From: Amorphoplanes friuliensis DSM 7358
GTDB lineage: Bacteria; Actinomycetota; Actinomycetes; Mycobacteriales; Micromonosporaceae
NCBI RefSeq assembly: GCF_000494755.1
Contig: NC_022657.1
Coordinates: 3,510,001-3,574,000 of the forward strand
Direction of reading: 5' to 3'
DNA length: 64,000 bases
Shown here: positions 6,712 to 15,341 of the stretch, one piece after another
Numbering within the stretch: position 1 is the stretch's first letter
Layout: each line of letters begins with the position of its first letter
Position numbers and translations under genes: made by a program
The notes under the pieces: model-generated
The model's database searches: none
Seen by the model: only the letters and a program-made list of their open reading frames with translations
What the model was told of the DNA's origin: nothing

Positions 6712-7824
6712 ATGTCCGAGATGCTGCGCGCCCCCGCCGAGACCAAGTACGCCGACGAGCTCGACTGGCTCGAGTCGGTCGACGACGGGCCGAAACCGTT
6801 CTCCTGGCGGCTCAGCCCCAAGATGGTGCGCCTCTTCGTCCTCGGCTCCGAACGCGCCGACGGCCTCGACCGGGACATCCCGCAGAAGTGGTTCGGCGAC
6901 CGCAGCTTCGTCGAGCGGGCCATCGTCACGCTCGCCTCCGACCGCGGCCTGCTGCTCATCGGTGACCCCGGCACCGGCAAGAGCTGGCTGGCCGAGCTGC
7001 TCGCCGCCGCGATCAGCCGCAACTCCACCCTGGTCGTGCAGGGCACCGCCGGCACCACCGAGGACCACATCAAATATTCGTGGAACGTCTCGATGGTCAT
7101 CGCCAAGGGTCAGTCGCGCGCCTCGATGATCCCGTCGCCGATCATGACCGCGATGGAGGGCGGGGTGATCGGCCGCTTCGAGGAGCTGACCCGGTCGACC
7201 AGCGACGTCCAGGACGCGCTGATCTCGATCCTCTCCGAGAAGTACGTCTCCATCCCCGAGCTCGACGAGGACAACATCGTCTTCGCCAGGCCCGGCTTCT
7301 CCATCATCGCCACCGCGAACAGCCGCGACCGCGGTGTCAACGACCTCTCGTCCGCGCTCAAGCGCCGCTTCAACTTCGTCCGCATCCCCGTCGTGACCAA
7401 CAAGAAGAGCGAGGCGGAGATCGTCCGCTTCCGCACCGAAGAACTGCTGCGCCGCCACAACATCGAGCTGGAGGTCCCGCCCACGCTGCTCGACGTGCTG
7501 CTGCAGAGCTTCGCCGACCTGCGGGCCGCCTCGGCCTCGGCGACCAGCGACGACGAACGCCTGGAGTCGGCGCTCTCCACCGCCGAGCAGATCGGTGTGC
7601 TGGAGGACGCGATCCTGCACAGCACCTTCTTCGGCGCCAAGGCGCTCGACGCCGGGACCCTGGCCGGTTCCCTCGTGGGGTCGCTCGCCCGGCGCAGCCC
7701 CGAGGACCTGGCGATCCTCAACAAATACCTGCACGGTGTCGTCGAGCCGCGCAGCAAGGACCGTGGCGGCGACTGGAACGACTTCCTGGAGGGTGGTCGC
7801 GAGGCGATCGCCACCCTGTCATGA
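6712..7824 (+). CDS. MoxR-family AAA+ ATPase
   Basis: A 370-aa AAA+ ATPase. Walker A is GDPGTGKSW (about residues 84-92), the Walker B/helix region is EGGVIGRFEELTR, the sensor-1 region is IIATANSRDRGVNDLSSA, and the arginine-rich ALKRRF follows. This order is that of MoxR/RavA-type chaperone ATPases, which form hexamers that remodel partners loaded by vWA proteins. The start ATG at 6712 follows a GAGGAG Shine-Dalgarno. Its stop overlaps the start of the DUF5682 gene (ATGA at 7821), so the ATPase and DUF5682 protein are likely made in fixed ratio. It would act as the energy-consuming core of the complex. Confidence 0.92.
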   Translation: MSEMLRAPAETKYADELDWLESVDDGPKPFSWRLSPKMVRLFVLGSERADGLDRDIPQKWFGDRSFVERAIVTLASDRGLLLIGDPGTGKSWLAELLAAAISRNSTLVVQGTAGTTEDHIKYSWNVSMVIAKGQSRASMIPSPIMTAMEGGVIGRFEELTRSTSDVQDALISILSEKYVSIPELDEDNIVFARPGFSIIATANSRDRGVNDLSSALKRRFNFVRIPVVTNKKSEAEIVRFRTEELLRRHNIELEVPPTLLDVLLQSFADLRAASASATSDDERLESALSTAEQIGVLEDAILHSTFFGAKALDAGTLAGSLVGSLARRSPEDLAILNKYLHGVVEPRSKDRGGDWNDFLEGGREAIATLS

Positions 7825-10601
7825 GCGCCGGTCCCTTCGACGCGCTCCGCGAGCAGCTGCTCGGCGCGGCCGAGGCGCTCGCCGGTGGGCCGGCCGCCCT
7901 CCCGGAGATCCTCGCCGGCCTCGTCGACGACGTCGGTCTCGTCCTGGCCGAGCCCCTGGAGATCTTCCCGGTCTGTCACCACTCACCGGCGTCGGCGCTC
8001 GCCATGGTGCGGCGGCTCCGCGAGAAACAGCCCAAAGTCGTTTATCTGGAGCTCTGCGAGGACCTCGGACCGCTGCTCACCGAGCTGCGCAACTGCCGCC
8101 TGCCAGTGGCGTTGCAGGCGTTCGCCTCCGACATCGAGGGCTTCCCGCCGGAGTCGGCGCCGCTGAGCGTCATCGCGCCCATCACCGAGGCCTCCGCCGA
8201 ATACCAGGCCATCGCGTACGCCCTGGAGACGCCCGGCGTGGAACTCGTCCTCGTCGACCGGTCCACCGACCACGTGTTCCAGTGGCAACCGGTGCCCGGC
8301 GCGACCGCGGCCGATGCGGAGGAGCTGCACGGCGACGCCATCGGTGTCGAGCTCGGCGACCTGCGGCCCCGCTTCGCCGAGCTCGAGGAACACCTCCTGC
8401 ACCACGGCCGCGTCCGGCACTGGTCGGAATGGTGGGACCAGTTCGTCGAGCAGCCACTGGCCGGTGCCGACCACGAGACCTACCGGCAGGTGATGGTGCT
8501 GATCGGAAGCCTCTTCCGGCGCCTCGCCCCGCACGACTCCCAGCGGTACGACAGCGACGAGGACCGCGAACGCTACATGTGGACGCGCATCCGCGAGCAC
8601 CTCGCCGTCACCGGCACCGACCGCGCCGACTGCCTCTTCATCTGCGGCGCTTTCCATGCCGCGAGCCGTGTCCCCGAGGCCGGCTCGGACCCGTCGACAC
8701 CCGACTTCACCATCACTCCCCGCACCGGCAGCAAGTGGCTCTACGGCCTGATCCCGTCCAGCCACTCGGCGATCGAGGCGCAGTTCGGACTCGCACCCGG
8801 CTCCGTCTCCATCGCCGGCGCCACCTGGGAGAAGACCCTCGGCCGGACCCGCCTCACGCCGTTCCGGCTGGAAGGACAGAAGGGCGGCCGGAAACGTGCC
8901 GCCAAGGCGCTCCCGCCGCCCGCCGCCGACGCCGGTCCCGTCACCGACCAGCTCACCGGATATCTCTCCGCGCCCGCAGCGCTCGACGGGCTCGACGAGG
9001 AGGAACTGCGCGGCTGGTGCGTCGACATCGTCCGGCTCGCCCGCCGCAACGGATACCTGGCGAGCACCGCCGACGCCATCGCCGTTTTCGAGACGTCGAT
9101 CCTGCTCGCCGGGATGCGAGGCCGGGCGCGGCCGACCCCGTACGACTTCCAGGACGCCGCCGTCACCTGCATCGAGAAGGACATGGTCCCCGGCCGGCGC
9201 GACGTCCGCCGCCTCTGCGAGATCCTCCTCGGCGGCGACCGCACCGGCCAGGTCGGCTACGACGCGATGCCCCCGCTCGCCCGCGACGTCTACGACCGGC
9301 TCGCGCCGCTCGGCCTCAACCTCGAACAGCGCACCATCCAGCGGGCGCTGCTCGACCTCGCGTCCGGCCCGGAGCTGGCGGCGTGCTCCCAGCTGCTGTG
9401 GATGCTGCGCTACCTGCTGCCGGACCATGCCGTACGCCCCATCATGGGCTCGCGCCGCCTCGGCGAGACACCCATCCAGGAGAGCTGGGACCTCGACCTC
9501 GGCCGCCACCAGCGCACCATCATCGAACTGGGCTACGAAGGCGTCACCGTCGAACAGGTCCTCGAACAACGCTTGCGCCGCGCCGCCTGGGACCCGAAAG
9601 CCACCGCGGCGACGGCCCTGAAAGCCGTCGAGCACTCCCTGCTGTTCCTCTCCAGCCCCCGCCTCACCGACGACCTCGGCGCCCGCGCCGTCGAGCTGCT
9701 GTCCACCGAACGCGACGTCGACGAGGCCCCGGCCGTCCTGCGCCGCATCCGCCGCCTCCTGGCGTTCTACCGCGCCACCACACCGGCGCTGCCGGCCTGG
9801 TCGGAACGGTTCGTCACCGAGGGCTACGCCCACTACTGCACGCTGCTGCCCGTCGCGTTCGTCGAGGAGGAGACCGGCGTACGCCAGGTCGGCGCGATGC
9901 TCGGGTTCCTGTTCAGCATGGAAAGCCTGGCCTTGTCGCTGGGGTGTGACCGTACGCAGCTCGAACTGGCCGTCCGCCAGGCCCACCCCGAATCACCCGC
10001 CAAGATCGCCCTCCTCTGGGCGGCCCGCCACCAGCTCGGCCTCCTGCCCCTGGCCGACCTCCGCCACCGCGTCGACGACCTCCTCGGCAATCCGCTCGTG
10101 GTCCCGGCCTTCCCGCAGTACGTCAGCGGTTTTGTCCAGTCCCTGGAAGCGGTCCCGCGCCTCACCCCGTTTGTCGTCGAAACGCTGTCGAACGCCTTCG
10201 CCCGCCTCCCGGACCCGATCCTCCTGCCCTGGCTCCCCACCCTCATCACCACCCTCAGATCCCAGGCCGCCGAGCTGGTCCCGGTCCTCACCCGGGAAGC
10301 CGCCCGCACCTTCCCGGGCACCCTGACCGCCCTCGATGCCTGGACACCCCCGTGGCTGGCGCCGCAGCCGGCTGCTCGCGCCTCGTCACCACCGCCGGCA
10401 AACGCGGTGCTGCTCGCGAGCCACCCCGCGACGACGGATGCGGTGGCGGCCCTCCTCGGCTGCGAAGGGGACTGGTCGGTCGCCGCCACCGGGCCGGACC
10501 CGGGCACCGCCGTCGCCGAGCTCCTCGCCGCCCACGCCGAATCACCGTCAGCGATCGCCGCACTGCTCGCTGCCCCAAGCGGCGGAGGCGCCCGGGGTTA
10601 G
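7821..10601 (+). CDS. DUF5682 family protein, putative enzymatic effector of the vWA-MoxR system
   Basis: A large 926-aa soluble protein. The N-terminal 300 residues carry FPVCHHSPAS (about residue 52), YLELCEDL (about 80) and FICGAFHAA (about 275). This His/His...Glu...His pattern is what I associate with DUF5682 and the ChaN/EreA/TIKI-like metal-dependent hydrolase fold. The remaining 600 residues are mostly helical, with repeated Leu/Arg-rich segments, and may be a scaffold. The ATG at 7821 overlaps the MoxR stop; frames open further upstream are shadows of the MoxR gene. A hydrolytic effector activated by the MoxR-vWA pair would fit the context, but the substrate is unknown and catalysis is not demonstrated. 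Confidence 0.82.
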   Translation: MSAGPFDALREQLLGAAEALAGGPAALPEILAGLVDDVGLVLAEPLEIFPVCHHSPASALAMVRRLREKQPKVVYLELCEDLGPLLTELRNCRLPVALQAFASDIEGFPPESAPLSVIAPITEASAEYQAIAYALETPGVELVLVDRSTDHVFQWQPVPGATAADAEELHGDAIGVELGDLRPRFAELEEHLLHHGRVRHWSEWWDQFVEQPLAGADHETYRQVMVLIGSLFRRLAPHDSQRYDSDEDRERYMWTRIREHLAVTGTDRADCLFICGAFHAASRVPEAGSDPSTPDFTITPRTGSKWLYGLIPSSHSAIEAQFGLAPGSVSIAGATWEKTLGRTRLTPFRLEGQKGGRKRAAKALPPPAADAGPVTDQLTGYLSAPAALDGLDEEELRGWCVDIVRLARRNGYLASTADAIAVFETSILLAGMRGRARPTPYDFQDAAVTCIEKDMVPGRRDVRRLCEILLGGDRTGQVGYDAMPPLARDVYDRLAPLGLNLEQRTIQRALLDLASGPELAACSQLLWMLRYLLPDHAVRPIMGSRRLGETPIQESWDLDLGRHQRTIIELGYEGVTVEQVLEQRLRRAAWDPKATAATALKAVEHSLLFLSSPRLTDDLGARAVELLSTERDVDEAPAVLRRIRRLLAFYRATTPALPAWSERFVTEGYAHYCTLLPVAFVEEETGVRQVGAMLGFLFSMESLALSLGCDRTQLELAVRQAHPESPAKIALLWAARHQLGLLPLADLRHRVDDLLGNPLVVPAFPQYVSGFVQSLEAVPRLTPFVVETLSNAFARLPDPILLPWLPTLITTLRSQAAELVPVLTREAARTFPGTLTALDAWTPPWLAPQPAARASSPPPANAVLLASHPATTDAVAALLGCEGDWSVAATGPDPGTAVAELLAAHAESPSAIAALLAAPSGGGARG

Positions 10602-10905
10602 GGAGGTGCCCGGACAAGGGGATGCGCCGGGGCGAGCAATGTGGCCGGGTGCGCTGAGTCAACGGGCCTCCTGGGGTGGGGGAGCGATTCACTTCGATGA
10701 GGGAGGTGACCGACTGGCGGAAGTGCCGGGTGAGGGAGGCGCTGGGGTGAGGGAGATGCCCGGGTGACGAAGGTGTGAGTCCGGGGCGGGGGCGGTGTCT
10801 TTCGGTGCGGGTGGGTGTCACCCGTTCGGGCGTCATGATTCGGGTCCTGAGCTGCGCCACCGGTAGCGTCTGTCGCACGCCGACTGCATATCGGAGGGCT
10901 TGTTC
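10602..10905 (+). other. Intergenic region with degenerate direct repeats
   Basis: There is no convincing gene in these 304 bases. G-rich short direct repeats with a core like GAGGGAGrTGCCCGG recur near 10605, 10699, 10731 and 10747, with imperfect spacing. The last 100 bases probably hold the promoter of the DUF4407 gene, but no clear -35/-10 pair was found. The repeats resemble, in G-richness only, the larger array after 12407; they are not the same unit. Confidence 0.45.
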
Positions 10906-12375
10906 GTGGACACGTCCGCTACGCGTTCCGCGCCGGCCGCGGAGCCTGCTGTACCGAGTTCGCGGCGGCACAACCGGTTGTTGCTGTGGCTGTCCGGGGC
11001 CGACCTCGACACGCTGGCCAAGGTGCCGCGGGAGGCCCGGAAGTACGTCGGGCTCGGCGGGCTCGTGCTGACCACGGCCGTCCTGGCCATGGTGTCCGCG
11101 ACCTTCGCGTTGTACGTCGGACTGCGGGCGCCGGTGGTCGTGGCGTTGCTGGTCGGCCTCGGGTGGGGTCTGGCCATCATGAACATGGACCGCTGGCTGA
11201 TCTCAGCCGCTCAGCGGCAGCGGCGCTGGTACCTGAACCTCATGCTGACGACGCCCCGGCTGCTGCTCGCGCTGATCATCGGGACGGTGGTTTCCACGCC
11301 GATGGTGCTCTGGATCTTCAACCAGGAGATCGAGTCGGAGCTCAACATCGTGCAGCGGGAGCGGGACGCCGCTTACCAGGTGTCCCTGACGCAGGATCCG
11401 CGATTCCAGATCATTCCCGGTCTGGAGAAGAGCGTCGCCGAGAACCAGCGTGTTGTCGACGGCACGGCCCCCGCGACCAGCGCCGCCGCCGGCACCGAGG
11501 TGGGGCGGCTGCAGGAGCAGTTCGACAAGCTCGACAAGGAGTTCCAGGCCGCCCAGAAGGCCGCCACCTGCGAGCTCGACGGCACCTGCGGGACGGACAA
11601 GCCCGGCAGCGGCACGGCCTTCCGCACCAAACAGGACGTGGCCGACGAGCTGAAGGACCGCCGGGACGAGGTGGGGAAGCGGCTCGACACCGCCGTCGAG
11701 CGGGCGTCCGCGGCCGACGCCACCGCGTCGCAGAGTGCCCGGCGGTCCGCAGCCGACAATCTCGCCGCGGACAAGGCGCAGCTGGCGGGCCTGGTGGCTG
11801 AGCGGGACAGGCTGAAGGCCAGGCACGACGCGGACAGCGCCGAGAATCGCGGGCTGCTGGCGCGGCTGGAGGCGCTGAGCCACTTCACCAAGGACAACAG
11901 CACGCTGCGGTCGGCGTACGTTGCGCTCTTCCTCTTCATCACGGCGCTGGAGATCCTGCCGGTCTTCGCGAAGCTGCTGATGAACCTGGCCGCGCCGAGT
12001 CTGTACGACAAGATCGTCGGTCAGGCCGACGCCAAGGACGAGCAGACCGCACGGGCGGCGATCGATTACGAACACACGGCCGCCGTGCACTACATCAACA
12101 GCCGCGCCGAACGGGACCGGGAGGTCATCGACGACACCCGCGACCGGATGGTGACGCTGGAGGCCGACGTGTACCGCCGCACGATCGACCGCTGGCACGC
12201 CGACCAGGTCGGCCGCATGGCCGGCGAGGAGCGGGCGCCATCGGTCCGCGACCGGCTGGCGCGACTGACCGGGCTACCGCGTCAGACCCGCCCCCGCGCG
12301 GCGCGCGACCCCGGCCGGGCCGACGACTTCAGCCCGTTCCCGGAGCCCGAGGAAACCACCGAAGCCCCGCGCTGA
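10906..12375 (+). CDS. DUF4407 membrane protein with long coiled coil
   Basis: A 489-aa membrane protein. GTG 10906 is preferred because GGAGGG ends seven bases upstream; TTG 10900 would sit on top of it. Three hydrophobic segments lie in the first 130 residues (for example LVLTTAVLAMVSATFALYVG and LLLALIIGTVVSTPMVLWIF). A long Lys/Glu/Ala-rich coiled coil follows (about 125-325), then a fourth helix (LFLFITALEILPVFAKLLM), then a charged C-terminal tail. This layout is that of DUF4407 proteins. The coiled coil would lie between helices 3 and 4, probably outside the membrane. It follows the vWA-MoxR-DUF5682 operon on the same strand with a 304-base gap, so co-function is possible but not shown. 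Confidence 0.85.
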   Translation: MDTSATRSAPAAEPAVPSSRRHNRLLLWLSGADLDTLAKVPREARKYVGLGGLVLTTAVLAMVSATFALYVGLRAPVVVALLVGLGWGLAIMNMDRWLISAAQRQRRWYLNLMLTTPRLLLALIIGTVVSTPMVLWIFNQEIESELNIVQRERDAAYQVSLTQDPRFQIIPGLEKSVAENQRVVDGTAPATSAAAGTEVGRLQEQFDKLDKEFQAAQKAATCELDGTCGTDKPGSGTAFRTKQDVADELKDRRDEVGKRLDTAVERASAADATASQSARRSAADNLAADKAQLAGLVAERDRLKARHDADSAENRGLLARLEALSHFTKDNSTLRSAYVALFLFITALEILPVFAKLLMNLAAPSLYDKIVGQADAKDEQTARAAIDYEHTAAVHYINSRAERDREVIDDTRDRMVTLEADVYRRTIDRWHADQVGRMAGEERAPSVRDRLARLTGLPRQTRPRAARDPGRADDFSPFPEPEETTEAPR

Positions 12376-12406
12376 GTCGCGGAGCGCGCGGCCCGCGCCG
12401 CAGGCT

Positions 12407-13018
12407 CCTTCAGGGTGAGGGTCGCGATGGCCGCGCCGGGCCGCGCGGTTCGTGGGGTCTTTCAGGGTGAGGGTCGCGATGGCCGCGCCTGGCCGCGCGG
12501 TTCGTGGGGTCTTTCAGGGTGAGGGTCGCGATGGCCGCGCCTGGCGCCGCGGTTTGTGGGGTCTTTCAGGGTGAGGGTCGCGATGACCACGTCGGGCCGC
12601 GCGGTTCGTGAGGGGGTCCATCGGGGTGAGGGTCGTGATGACCGCGCCTGGCGCCGCGGTTTGTGGGGTCTTTCAGGGTGAGGGCCGCGATGACCCCGCC
12701 GGGCCGCGGTTCGTAAAAGGTCCATCGGGATGACGGTCGTGATGACCGCGCCCGGCGCCGCGGTTCGTGAGGGGGCCATCGGGATGAGGGTCGCGATGAC
12801 CCCGCCGGGCCGCGCGATTCGAGACGGGTCCATCGGGATGAGGTCGTGCCTGGCGCCGCGCGGTTCGTCAGGGTCCTTCAGGACCGAGGGTTGCGATGAC
12901 CGTGCCGGGCCGCGCGGTTTGTGAGGGGGCCTTCAGGGTGAGGTCGTGGTGACCGTGCCGGGCCGCGCGTGCTGTCAGGGGTCCATCAGGATGACGGTGG
13001 CGATGACCGTGCCGGGCA
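12407..13018. repeat. 12-copy tandem repeat, unit about 52 bp
   Basis: Copies begin with a C(C/T)(T/A)TC(A/G)GG motif at about 12407, 12459, 12511, 12563, 12618, 12670, 12722, 12776, 12830, 12875, 12930 and 12983. Spacings are 52, 52, 52, 55, 52, 52, 54, 54, 45, 55 and 53. Each unit contains GGTCGCGATGACC (inverted GGTC/GACC around GCGAT) followed by a GC-only block and GGTTCGTG. The last copy reads as coding sequence for the C-terminal residues of the minus-strand GAP1-like gene, ending at 12975. A 52-bp period is not a multiple of three, so the other copies do not extend that protein. Copies at the left are most alike, suggesting recent expansion there. The array fills the space between two convergent genes. 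Confidence 0.9.
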
Positions 13019-15341
13019 CTGTTCCGGGTTCGGCCTGAGCCTCGCGAACCCGTATGGGCGGGTTCTCCGGGAAGACGGGCCGCAGACTGGCAGCGATGAG
13101 GCTCGCCTGCTCCTCACCCTCGCCCAGCGCCGCTCCAGGTGCGGTCTGCCCGGTCAGGACCACAGCGATGACCAGCCTTCGCTGCTCGAGGTCGGTGCCG
13201 AGCTTGTCCAGGATGAACTGGCGGTGGCGTTCGCTCGGGTCCTGGGGGTTCAGCGGTGGTTTCAGGGTCCGCAGGGTGACGCCGGTCGGTCGGGCATCGG
13301 TCACCGGCTCGACCCGGGACGGTGCCTGAGAGGCGGCCACGGCGTTGTGCGCGACGGGTTTGTCGTCGCGCAGGGCCAGCAGAATCCCGGCCGCTACGAG
13401 GATCAGCGTCGCGCCGACCGCCACGGCGAAGGACCTGCGTCGCAAGAACGGTCGCGACTCGGGATCACCGTGGCGGCTCGTCAGCGGGACCTCGTCGTCG
13501 TCCGTGTCGGGTGAGCTCCGGTAGATCGCCGCGCGGCTCTCAGGAAATTCGGCACTTGGTGAGAGGTCTTCCCGCAAGCGTGCGGGGCCCCGGCTGTGGG
13601 TCACCCGCTGCCGCACCTCACCGACCGGCACCTGTTCCTGCTGCGCCTGAACCATCAGCGCGCGGACCTCGGCGGGCATGTCGTCGGTGACCGGTATCCC
13701 TTCGACGATGGCGTGCAGTTCCGGGTGGTTCCACAGGGTGGTCACACCCCGGGCCTGCAGGGCGGCGAGTCCTCCGTGGGTCACCGGCACCTGCAGGTCG
13801 CCGCGGTTGAGGTGGCTCAGTTTGGTGAGGAGGTCGGCCAGCCAGTCCGCGGGGGACGCTGCTCGGGAGACCAGGATGGTGGTCAGCCGGGCGACCTGGT
13901 CGCGGCGTGCCGCGGAGAGTTCGGGACGTCTCTTCGGGACCAGGAAGTCGATGAGGTGGGCGGCCTCGCCGGCGTCCATGGCGGTCAATCGTGAGGCGGC
14001 CTCGGACACGATCTGGAGACGGTCCTCGCTGCGTTTCAGCTCCGCCTTGGCGTCCTCGGTGAGGGTGCCGGCTTCGTTGATCATAGCGACGACGGCATCC
14101 GGCCGTGGAGGGTAGAGCCGGCCAAAAGTTCGGGGGGACAGCGAGAGCTTCTCCTGGAACCAGGTGTGGAGGGCGCGCAGGTCGCGGACGTCCGCCAAGG
14201 GACCGCCCGGTTCGGTGAGCTCCTCCAGATAGCGGGCGCGGTCCTTGGCCTGCCGGGCTCCCTTCAGCAGCATGGCGGCCAGCAGGTCTGCGAGGACCGG
14301 ATCGGGCGGCTCCGACGGTGTGGGGAAGCCGAGCACGTTCTCCGAGGTGGTGTCCTGCAGCTCCAGGAGCGCCTCGAACAGCTCGGTGCGTACCTTGGGG
14401 TCGTTCTGGATCGTCAGGCCGCGGCGGGCGGCGCGCCAGTCCAGCTCGACCCACTCGTGGAGCACGCGGGGGTCGTCGCGCAGCCTTTTCAGGCCGTTGG
14501 GCCAGAAGAAGGCGGCGGGCAGGTCGTGGACGGTGATCGGGAGCTCGTTGCGGGCGACGTGGTCGAGCACCGGACGCATGTCCTCGGCCGTGAGCAGCAG
14601 CGCCGGATCCAGCGCGATACCCGCTTGGGCGTACCGGGCGAGGTCGGGCAGGCAGCGGGCCAGCAACTCGCCGTCCTGCTCGTGGTGCAGGTCCGACGGG
14701 CGGGGTGCGGGGGTGCGGAAGTGCTGGGCCATGCGCCCGGCCATCACGCGGTCGCTGTGCTCGAACTCCGGGGGCCACAGACCGGCGATGACCCACCGGT
14801 CGGCCGCTTCGGGCCGGAAGAGGAGGCAGGTCGACCAGGTCCACTGGCGGGCGATCCGGGTGGGGACGACACGCAGCGCCGCCCCGATCACCGCCGCCGC
14901 CGTGGCCGGGTCGTTGCCGACGGGGAGCCGTGATTGCCGCCGGCAGACTCCGCCCAGCACGCCCTCGATCAGGTCGGACGGTGCCTGTGGGGCCACGGCG
15001 GAGTCCTCCGGCGCGACCTGTTCGCGGCCGAGCTCCCAGGCCTCCGCCGGGAGGACCTCGTCCGGGACAAAACCGAAGCGGCAGCCACCGGCGACGCCGA
15101 ACGGGCCCTTGCGGCCCTGCACCGCGAAACACCAGTGGCCCCGGCCCTCCACGTCGAGGTGGCGCAGGGTCCAGATCGGATGGGGGATGGTGGTCAGGAA
15201 CGCTTCCGGTGGCTGGCTGAGGTCGGAGCGCAGCAGCCGCTCGGCGACCGCCCAGTACGCCGGGGGTGCCGACTTCGGCTCGTGCCGGCTGAAGCCGGTG
15301 CCGGCCAGGTCGGCCCAGCGCACCACGATCATCTCCGTCAT
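12975..15341 (-). CDS. GTPase-associated protein 1 (GAP1)-like protein with C-terminal membrane anchor
   Basis: A 788-aa protein starting at ATG 15341, which overlaps the stop of the GTPase gene (ATGA). The N-terminal 160 residues (VVRWADLAGTGFSRHEPKSA, then PIWTLRHLDVEGRGHWCFA) resemble the GAP1 N-terminal type that accompanies P-loop GTPases in predicted bacterial conflict or signalling systems; I recall this family but cannot verify it here. A helical middle region runs to about residue 630. One membrane helix (FAVAVGATLILVAAGILLAL, about 638-658) follows, then about 130 residues likely on the other face, whose last residues (VPGTVIATVILMDP) come from a copy of the 52-bp repeat. It probably works with the adjacent GTPase at the membrane. 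Confidence 0.72.
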   Translation of the reverse strand: MTEMIVVRWADLAGTGFSRHEPKSAPPAYWAVAERLLRSDLSQPPEAFLTTIPHPIWTLRHLDVEGRGHWCFAVQGRKGPFGVAGGCRFGFVPDEVLPAEAWELGREQVAPEDSAVAPQAPSDLIEGVLGGVCRRQSRLPVGNDPATAAAVIGAALRVVPTRIARQWTWSTCLLFRPEAADRWVIAGLWPPEFEHSDRVMAGRMAQHFRTPAPRPSDLHHEQDGELLARCLPDLARYAQAGIALDPALLLTAEDMRPVLDHVARNELPITVHDLPAAFFWPNGLKRLRDDPRVLHEWVELDWRAARRGLTIQNDPKVRTELFEALLELQDTTSENVLGFPTPSEPPDPVLADLLAAMLLKGARQAKDRARYLEELTEPGGPLADVRDLRALHTWFQEKLSLSPRTFGRLYPPRPDAVVAMINEAGTLTEDAKAELKRSEDRLQIVSEAASRLTAMDAGEAAHLIDFLVPKRRPELSAARRDQVARLTTILVSRAASPADWLADLLTKLSHLNRGDLQVPVTHGGLAALQARGVTTLWNHPELHAIVEGIPVTDDMPAEVRALMVQAQQEQVPVGEVRQRVTHSRGPARLREDLSPSAEFPESRAAIYRSSPDTDDDEVPLTSRHGDPESRPFLRRRSFAVAVGATLILVAAGILLALRDDKPVAHNAVAASQAPSRVEPVTDARPTGVTLRTLKPPLNPQDPSERHRQFILDKLGTDLEQRRLVIAVVLTGQTAPGAALGEGEEQASLIAASLRPVFPENPPIRVREAQAEPGTVPGTVIATVILMDP

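Follow-up and report, generated by a model that had tools for sequence, protein, structure and literature searches.

In Amorphoplanes friuliensis DSM 7358, two convergent genes are separated by 599 bp, and a tandem array of 52-bp units fills this gap; the copy at one end of the array is the coding end of the neighboring GAP1-like gene. We consider it likely (probability roughly 0.75) that the array is an intergenic, degenerate minisatellite that was seeded by the 3′ end of this gene and grew neutrally between the convergent genes.

A 52-bp tandem array between convergent genes

Within the window, i.e., the whole 64,000-nucleotide stretch that was analyzed, TRF places a 52-bp unit at 12406–13017 in 11.7 copies, with 77% matches, 7% indels and a score of 569. 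The score did not exceed 84 in 300 dinucleotide-preserving shuffles of 12376–13060, and the runner-up tandem repeat of the window, located in coding DNA, scores 136. The twelve-copy, 52-bp repeat described in the sequence-only reading is therefore real, and its head-to-tail units, in the ~10–100 bp class and above chance, are those of a minisatellite. All twelve copies can be aligned. They are 52–55 bp long, with the exception of c4 (12826–12870), which an internal deletion has shortened to 45 bp, in agreement with the copy spacing reported earlier. The array has a G+C content of 71%, and pairwise identities between copies range from 69 to 94%.

The array lies between a DUF4407 gene (10900–12375, plus strand, 491 aa; PF14362, E 8e-82), which stops 30 bp short of it, and the GAP1-like gene on the minus strand (12975–15341, 788 aa), identified from its ORF and gene calls. 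In the product of the latter, a hydrophobic segment precedes the C-terminal part. It has no Pfam match, and its name is that of the sequence-only reading, with no confirming family match. Read on the minus strand, the copy next to the gene comprises the last 44 nt of this gene (12975–13018), including the TGA stop codon at 12975–12977, and ~10 nt of flank separate it from the following copy. Thus, the earlier identification of the rightmost copy with the coding end of the gene is correct, as is the statement that the expansion is out of frame: a unit of 52 bp is not divisible by three, and we rejected a coding expansion for this reason. A 123-aa minus-strand ORF that runs through the array was taken as a by-product.

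The locus in related genomes

The GAP1-like gene has a match in 8 of 67 genus genomes, counting that of A. friuliensis itself, and the convergent GAP1-like/DUF4407 pair is kept in six genus genomes besides its own. Stop-to-stop gaps in these six relatives are 45, 43, 6, 55, −10 and 13 bp, compared with 599 bp here, and TRF shows no array like the 52-bp one at the locus in any of them; such absence or difference at the same locus in relatives is a further feature of minisatellites. Among the loci fetched from the genus, TRF likewise detected none with a comparable 52-bp array. Because the relatives keep the convergent pair with short gaps and without the array, it is most simply read as a lineage-specific expansion directed away from the gene. 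The sequence-only reading had linked a repeat-free locus in sister strains to an assembly artefact. The relatives do keep the locus without repeats, but copies that are 69–94% identical are too diverged for collapsed or duplicated reads, and we rejected an artefact in favor of lineage-specific growth.

A search with the array of the A. friuliensis genome, a single contig of 9,376,071 bp, placed the unit at this one locus, so that the suggested look for the unit elsewhere in the genome yielded no second place. With the array as query, short weak matches were obtained in 16 other genus genomes (26–83 bp) and in five genomes of the phylum (30–52 bp). A Micromonosporaceae MAG contained the one distant relative that a search of genome contigs returned.

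Two side observations concern the same gene pair. In one relative (G043), 3.1 copies of a 77-bp repeat, 97% alike, lie near the start of the GAP1-like frame, on the opposite side of the gene (L006:1256–1495). The DUF4407 protein of A. friuliensis ends in ETTEAPR (window 12300–12375), and a WRF motif (WRFK, WRFRD or WRFRQD) closes its counterpart in each of the six syntenic relatives; this gene end may have been lost or replaced beside the growing array.

Origin and growth of the array

The C-terminus of the GAP1-like protein, GTVIATVILMDP followed by the stop, aligns with the final strand-like, hydrophobic segment in each of four distant relatives: GFLKVLVYYRP, GVLSVTVFYLR, GVIRVFVVYTS and GSLVGNFYFHG, each also followed by a stop. 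Because this segment has counterparts in distant relatives, the coding copy is probably ancestral, i.e., the seed of the array. Of the two directions allowed in the sequence-only reading, from or into coding DNA, the former is thus the most likely and the latter is not upheld. The low identity between the relatives (19–22% over the last 200 aa) counts against this assignment, the likeness being one of position and pattern rather than of strong identity.

The gene copy is 69–82% identical to the other copies, with no trend along the array. The far-end copies, c12 to c8 (12403–12665), are 83–94% alike, suggesting that this end was probably amplified most recently. Next-nearest copies (lag 2) have a mean identity of 0.856, above chance (permutation p = 0.002), compared with 0.823 for adjacent copies (lag 1; p = 0.26); the difference between the two lags has p = 0.07. 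From c4 to c10, two unit types alternate in the alignment. Together, the lag-2 identity and the alternating types point to growth that proceeded partly by two-unit steps.

From these observations we infer that the first step would have been a tandem duplication across the stop codon, encompassing 44 coding nt and ~10 nt of flank, which would leave the gene intact and the extra copy out of frame. Such a duplication would be tolerated because the upstream gene stays intact, the copies are non-coding and the convergent gap is without a promoter. Slippage or unequal recombination, partly of two units at once, would then have extended the array away from the gene into the convergent gap, and the array would have been kept, with no function needed, since its growth spares promoter, start site and reading frame. 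The array is consistent with an origin by slippage, as proposed earlier, or by unequal recombination, and either ordinary process accounts for its position, its seed, its frame, its lineage specificity and its missing structure.

RNA structure and a possible role in termination

Amplification of a 454 library from another strain of the genus, Actinoplanes sp. SE50/110, was blocked by numerous stable secondary structures of high GC content (PMC3364876). For the present array, the sequence-only reading had assigned GGTC-N5-GACC to each unit and suggested repeated hairpins or G-quadruplexes in the transcript. The motif is strictly intact in five copies only. Single units on the minus strand fold as their shuffles do (z from −0.9 to +1.8), and two candidate stems followed through the 12 copies show no compensatory change and no pair altered on both sides, so that the data support neither the proposed hairpins nor an array of intrinsic or hairpin terminators. 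A canonical G-quadruplex motif (four runs of G3+, loops up to 12) is absent on both strands, and we rejected a G-quadruplex array on these grounds. No Rfam family matches up to E 1. No terminator-like site was detected inside the array by a scan that requires a T run, which is often missing from actinobacterial terminators.

Folding of the whole gap gave z = −1.1 for the minus strand and z = −2.5 for the plus strand, with 1 of 100 shuffles folding equally well in the latter case. The plus-strand value, somewhat better than that of shuffles, counts against neutral growth, but as one leftover observation it leaves a structural role not supported.

The array could nevertheless act between the convergent genes as a bidirectional terminator or a roadblock, to which each unit would contribute a weak hairpin. 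Its position between two convergent gene ends and the plus-strand fold would fit such a role, as would the excess of arrays in convergent gaps and the strong palindromes that make up some other arrays of the genome (see below). However, the single units and the minus strand fold unremarkably, compensatory changes and terminator-like sites are lacking in the array, and the relatives do with gaps of 6–55 bp or overlapping gene ends. We therefore regard this alternative as unlikely, and we found no positive evidence for the terminator or insulator role put forward in the sequence-only reading.

Relation to known repeats

Bacterial minisatellites (VNTR) are intergenic head-to-tail units that change by slippage or unequal recombination. 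In the features tested, the array is a bacterial minisatellite and is ordinary by itself: it shares the head-to-tail units of tens of bp, the diverged copies, the lineage specificity and the likely mode of change. It differs in that the likely seed is readable as the coding end of a neighboring gene, and its value lies in being a clear case of a bacterial minisatellite for which this is so. MIRUs, one actinobacterial family of intergenic repeats of ~50–100 bp, are dispersed over many loci and can touch gene ends. The array resembles them as an actinobacterial intergenic tandem repeat of similar unit size at a gene end, whereas its unit occupies one place in its own genome and is not part of a dispersed family. 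Tandem repeats in archaeal Borg elements are also lineage-specific and independently formed, but they are perfect and A-enriched (PMC9879509), in contrast to the GC-rich copies here (71% G+C, 69–94% identity). At the level of titles and abstracts, in a partial coverage of the literature, we found no description of arrays seeded by gene 3′ ends in Actinoplanes.

Tandem arrays in gaps across the genome

The array also provides an entry to a genome-wide pattern: where a convergent gap is long, it is often a tandem array, and some of these arrays begin inside the end of a gene. A sample of 1.664 Mb from the A. friuliensis genome (80 stretches of 20 kb and the window), with approximate gene calls from a simple codon-usage script, contained 92 arrays with a period of at least 20 and a score of at least 100. 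Fifty-seven lie in gaps, those within one gap not being independent, and 35 are without gap assignment (coding). Among gaps longer than 100 bp, arrays are present in 20 of the 55 that are convergent, compared with 13 of the 219 co-directional and 5 of the 199 divergent ones (Fisher p = 5e-11 for convergent vs divergent and 4e-8 for convergent vs co-directional). Convergent gaps have a median length of 9 bp; long ones are therefore unusual, and they are often arrays.

In three genomes, the gap adjoining each gene end was also searched for a further copy of that end (score at least 36). In A. friuliensis, such copies were found for 11 of 497 3′ ends and 1 of 847 5′ ends, with one match in a foreign-query control. 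In G053, the corresponding counts are 7 of 160 and 1 of 198, and in G017 no gene end has a copy at this threshold. Thus, in two of the three genomes, copies of 3′ ends are more frequent than copies of 5′ ends. The four best 3′-end cases (L097, L059, the window and L113) overlap the gene by 27–43 nt. Elsewhere in the A. friuliensis genome, the arrays at L059:12334–12480, L113:12555–12727 and L122:14312–14376 start within the last codons of a gene and repeat its stop region downstream.

Because no promoter is present there, both the excess of arrays in convergent gaps and the repeated 3′ ends fit growth that is simply tolerated. The same data could alternatively mean that convergent 3′ ends are active hotspots, at which head-on transcription or termination raises the local rate of duplication. 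The excess of arrays in convergent over co-directional gaps argues for such hotspots and counts against neutral growth, although co-directional gaps may carry promoters; the preference for 3′ ends over 5′ ends in two genomes points the same way. Tolerance alone, however, would give the same order of gap classes, promoters being located in divergent and many co-directional gaps, and the absence of 3′-end copies in G017 at the threshold used counts against a hotspot. On balance, a raised duplication rate seems quite improbable. A related proposal, on which we place rather low odds, is that in some Actinoplanes convergent 3′ ends are active birthplaces of arrays, with stop-spanning duplications that grow in connection with head-on transcription or termination, such that each junction would acquire its own private satellite, which may erode the end of the neighboring gene. 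If arrays do arise actively at these sites, the birth of repeats in high-GC bacteria would be tied to transcription geometry.

A dispersed palindrome elsewhere in the genome

The palindrome CCAACTTC-N3-GAAGTTGG has 99 exact sites in the A. friuliensis genome and two in G018, compared with none for a control, and was absent from the 65 remaining genus genomes that were searched. Within the 1.66-Mb sample, ~130 copies with at most three mismatches occur in 16 gaps (nine convergent, seven co-directional and no divergent). Most of them form tandem arrays in which the unit measures about 41 or 82 bp. Examples are found at L097:12284–12564, L102:8624–9173, L110:11414–12537 and L118:3865–4493. The palindrome-bearing arrays fold far better than shuffles, with a median z of −6.3 vs −0.7 in control gaps. 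This repeat looks like a species-specific, 3′-side hairpin satellite and is perhaps terminator-like. At L097:12300–12318 the stop codon of the preceding predicted gene falls within the palindrome, and the repeat therefore supplies the protein end there. The 52-bp unit of the window array is without this palindrome.

The many intergenic arrays of the genome and the palindrome with a stop codon at L097 would accord with the insertion at our locus of a dispersed or mobile repeat family that supplied the last codons and stop of the GAP1-like gene by chance, but this is highly improbable and already largely refuted, since the unit is confined to a single locus, lacks the dispersed palindrome, and has a coding copy that corresponds to a C-terminal segment present in relatives as well.

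A second gap in the window also carries repeats. Behind the neighboring gene at 7821–10601, degenerate GGTGAGGGAGGTGCC-like repeats occupy 10602–10770, within which TRF identifies 2.5 copies of a 17-bp unit at 10726–10767, and the 3′ end of that gene is weakly repeated in the same gap (score 38).
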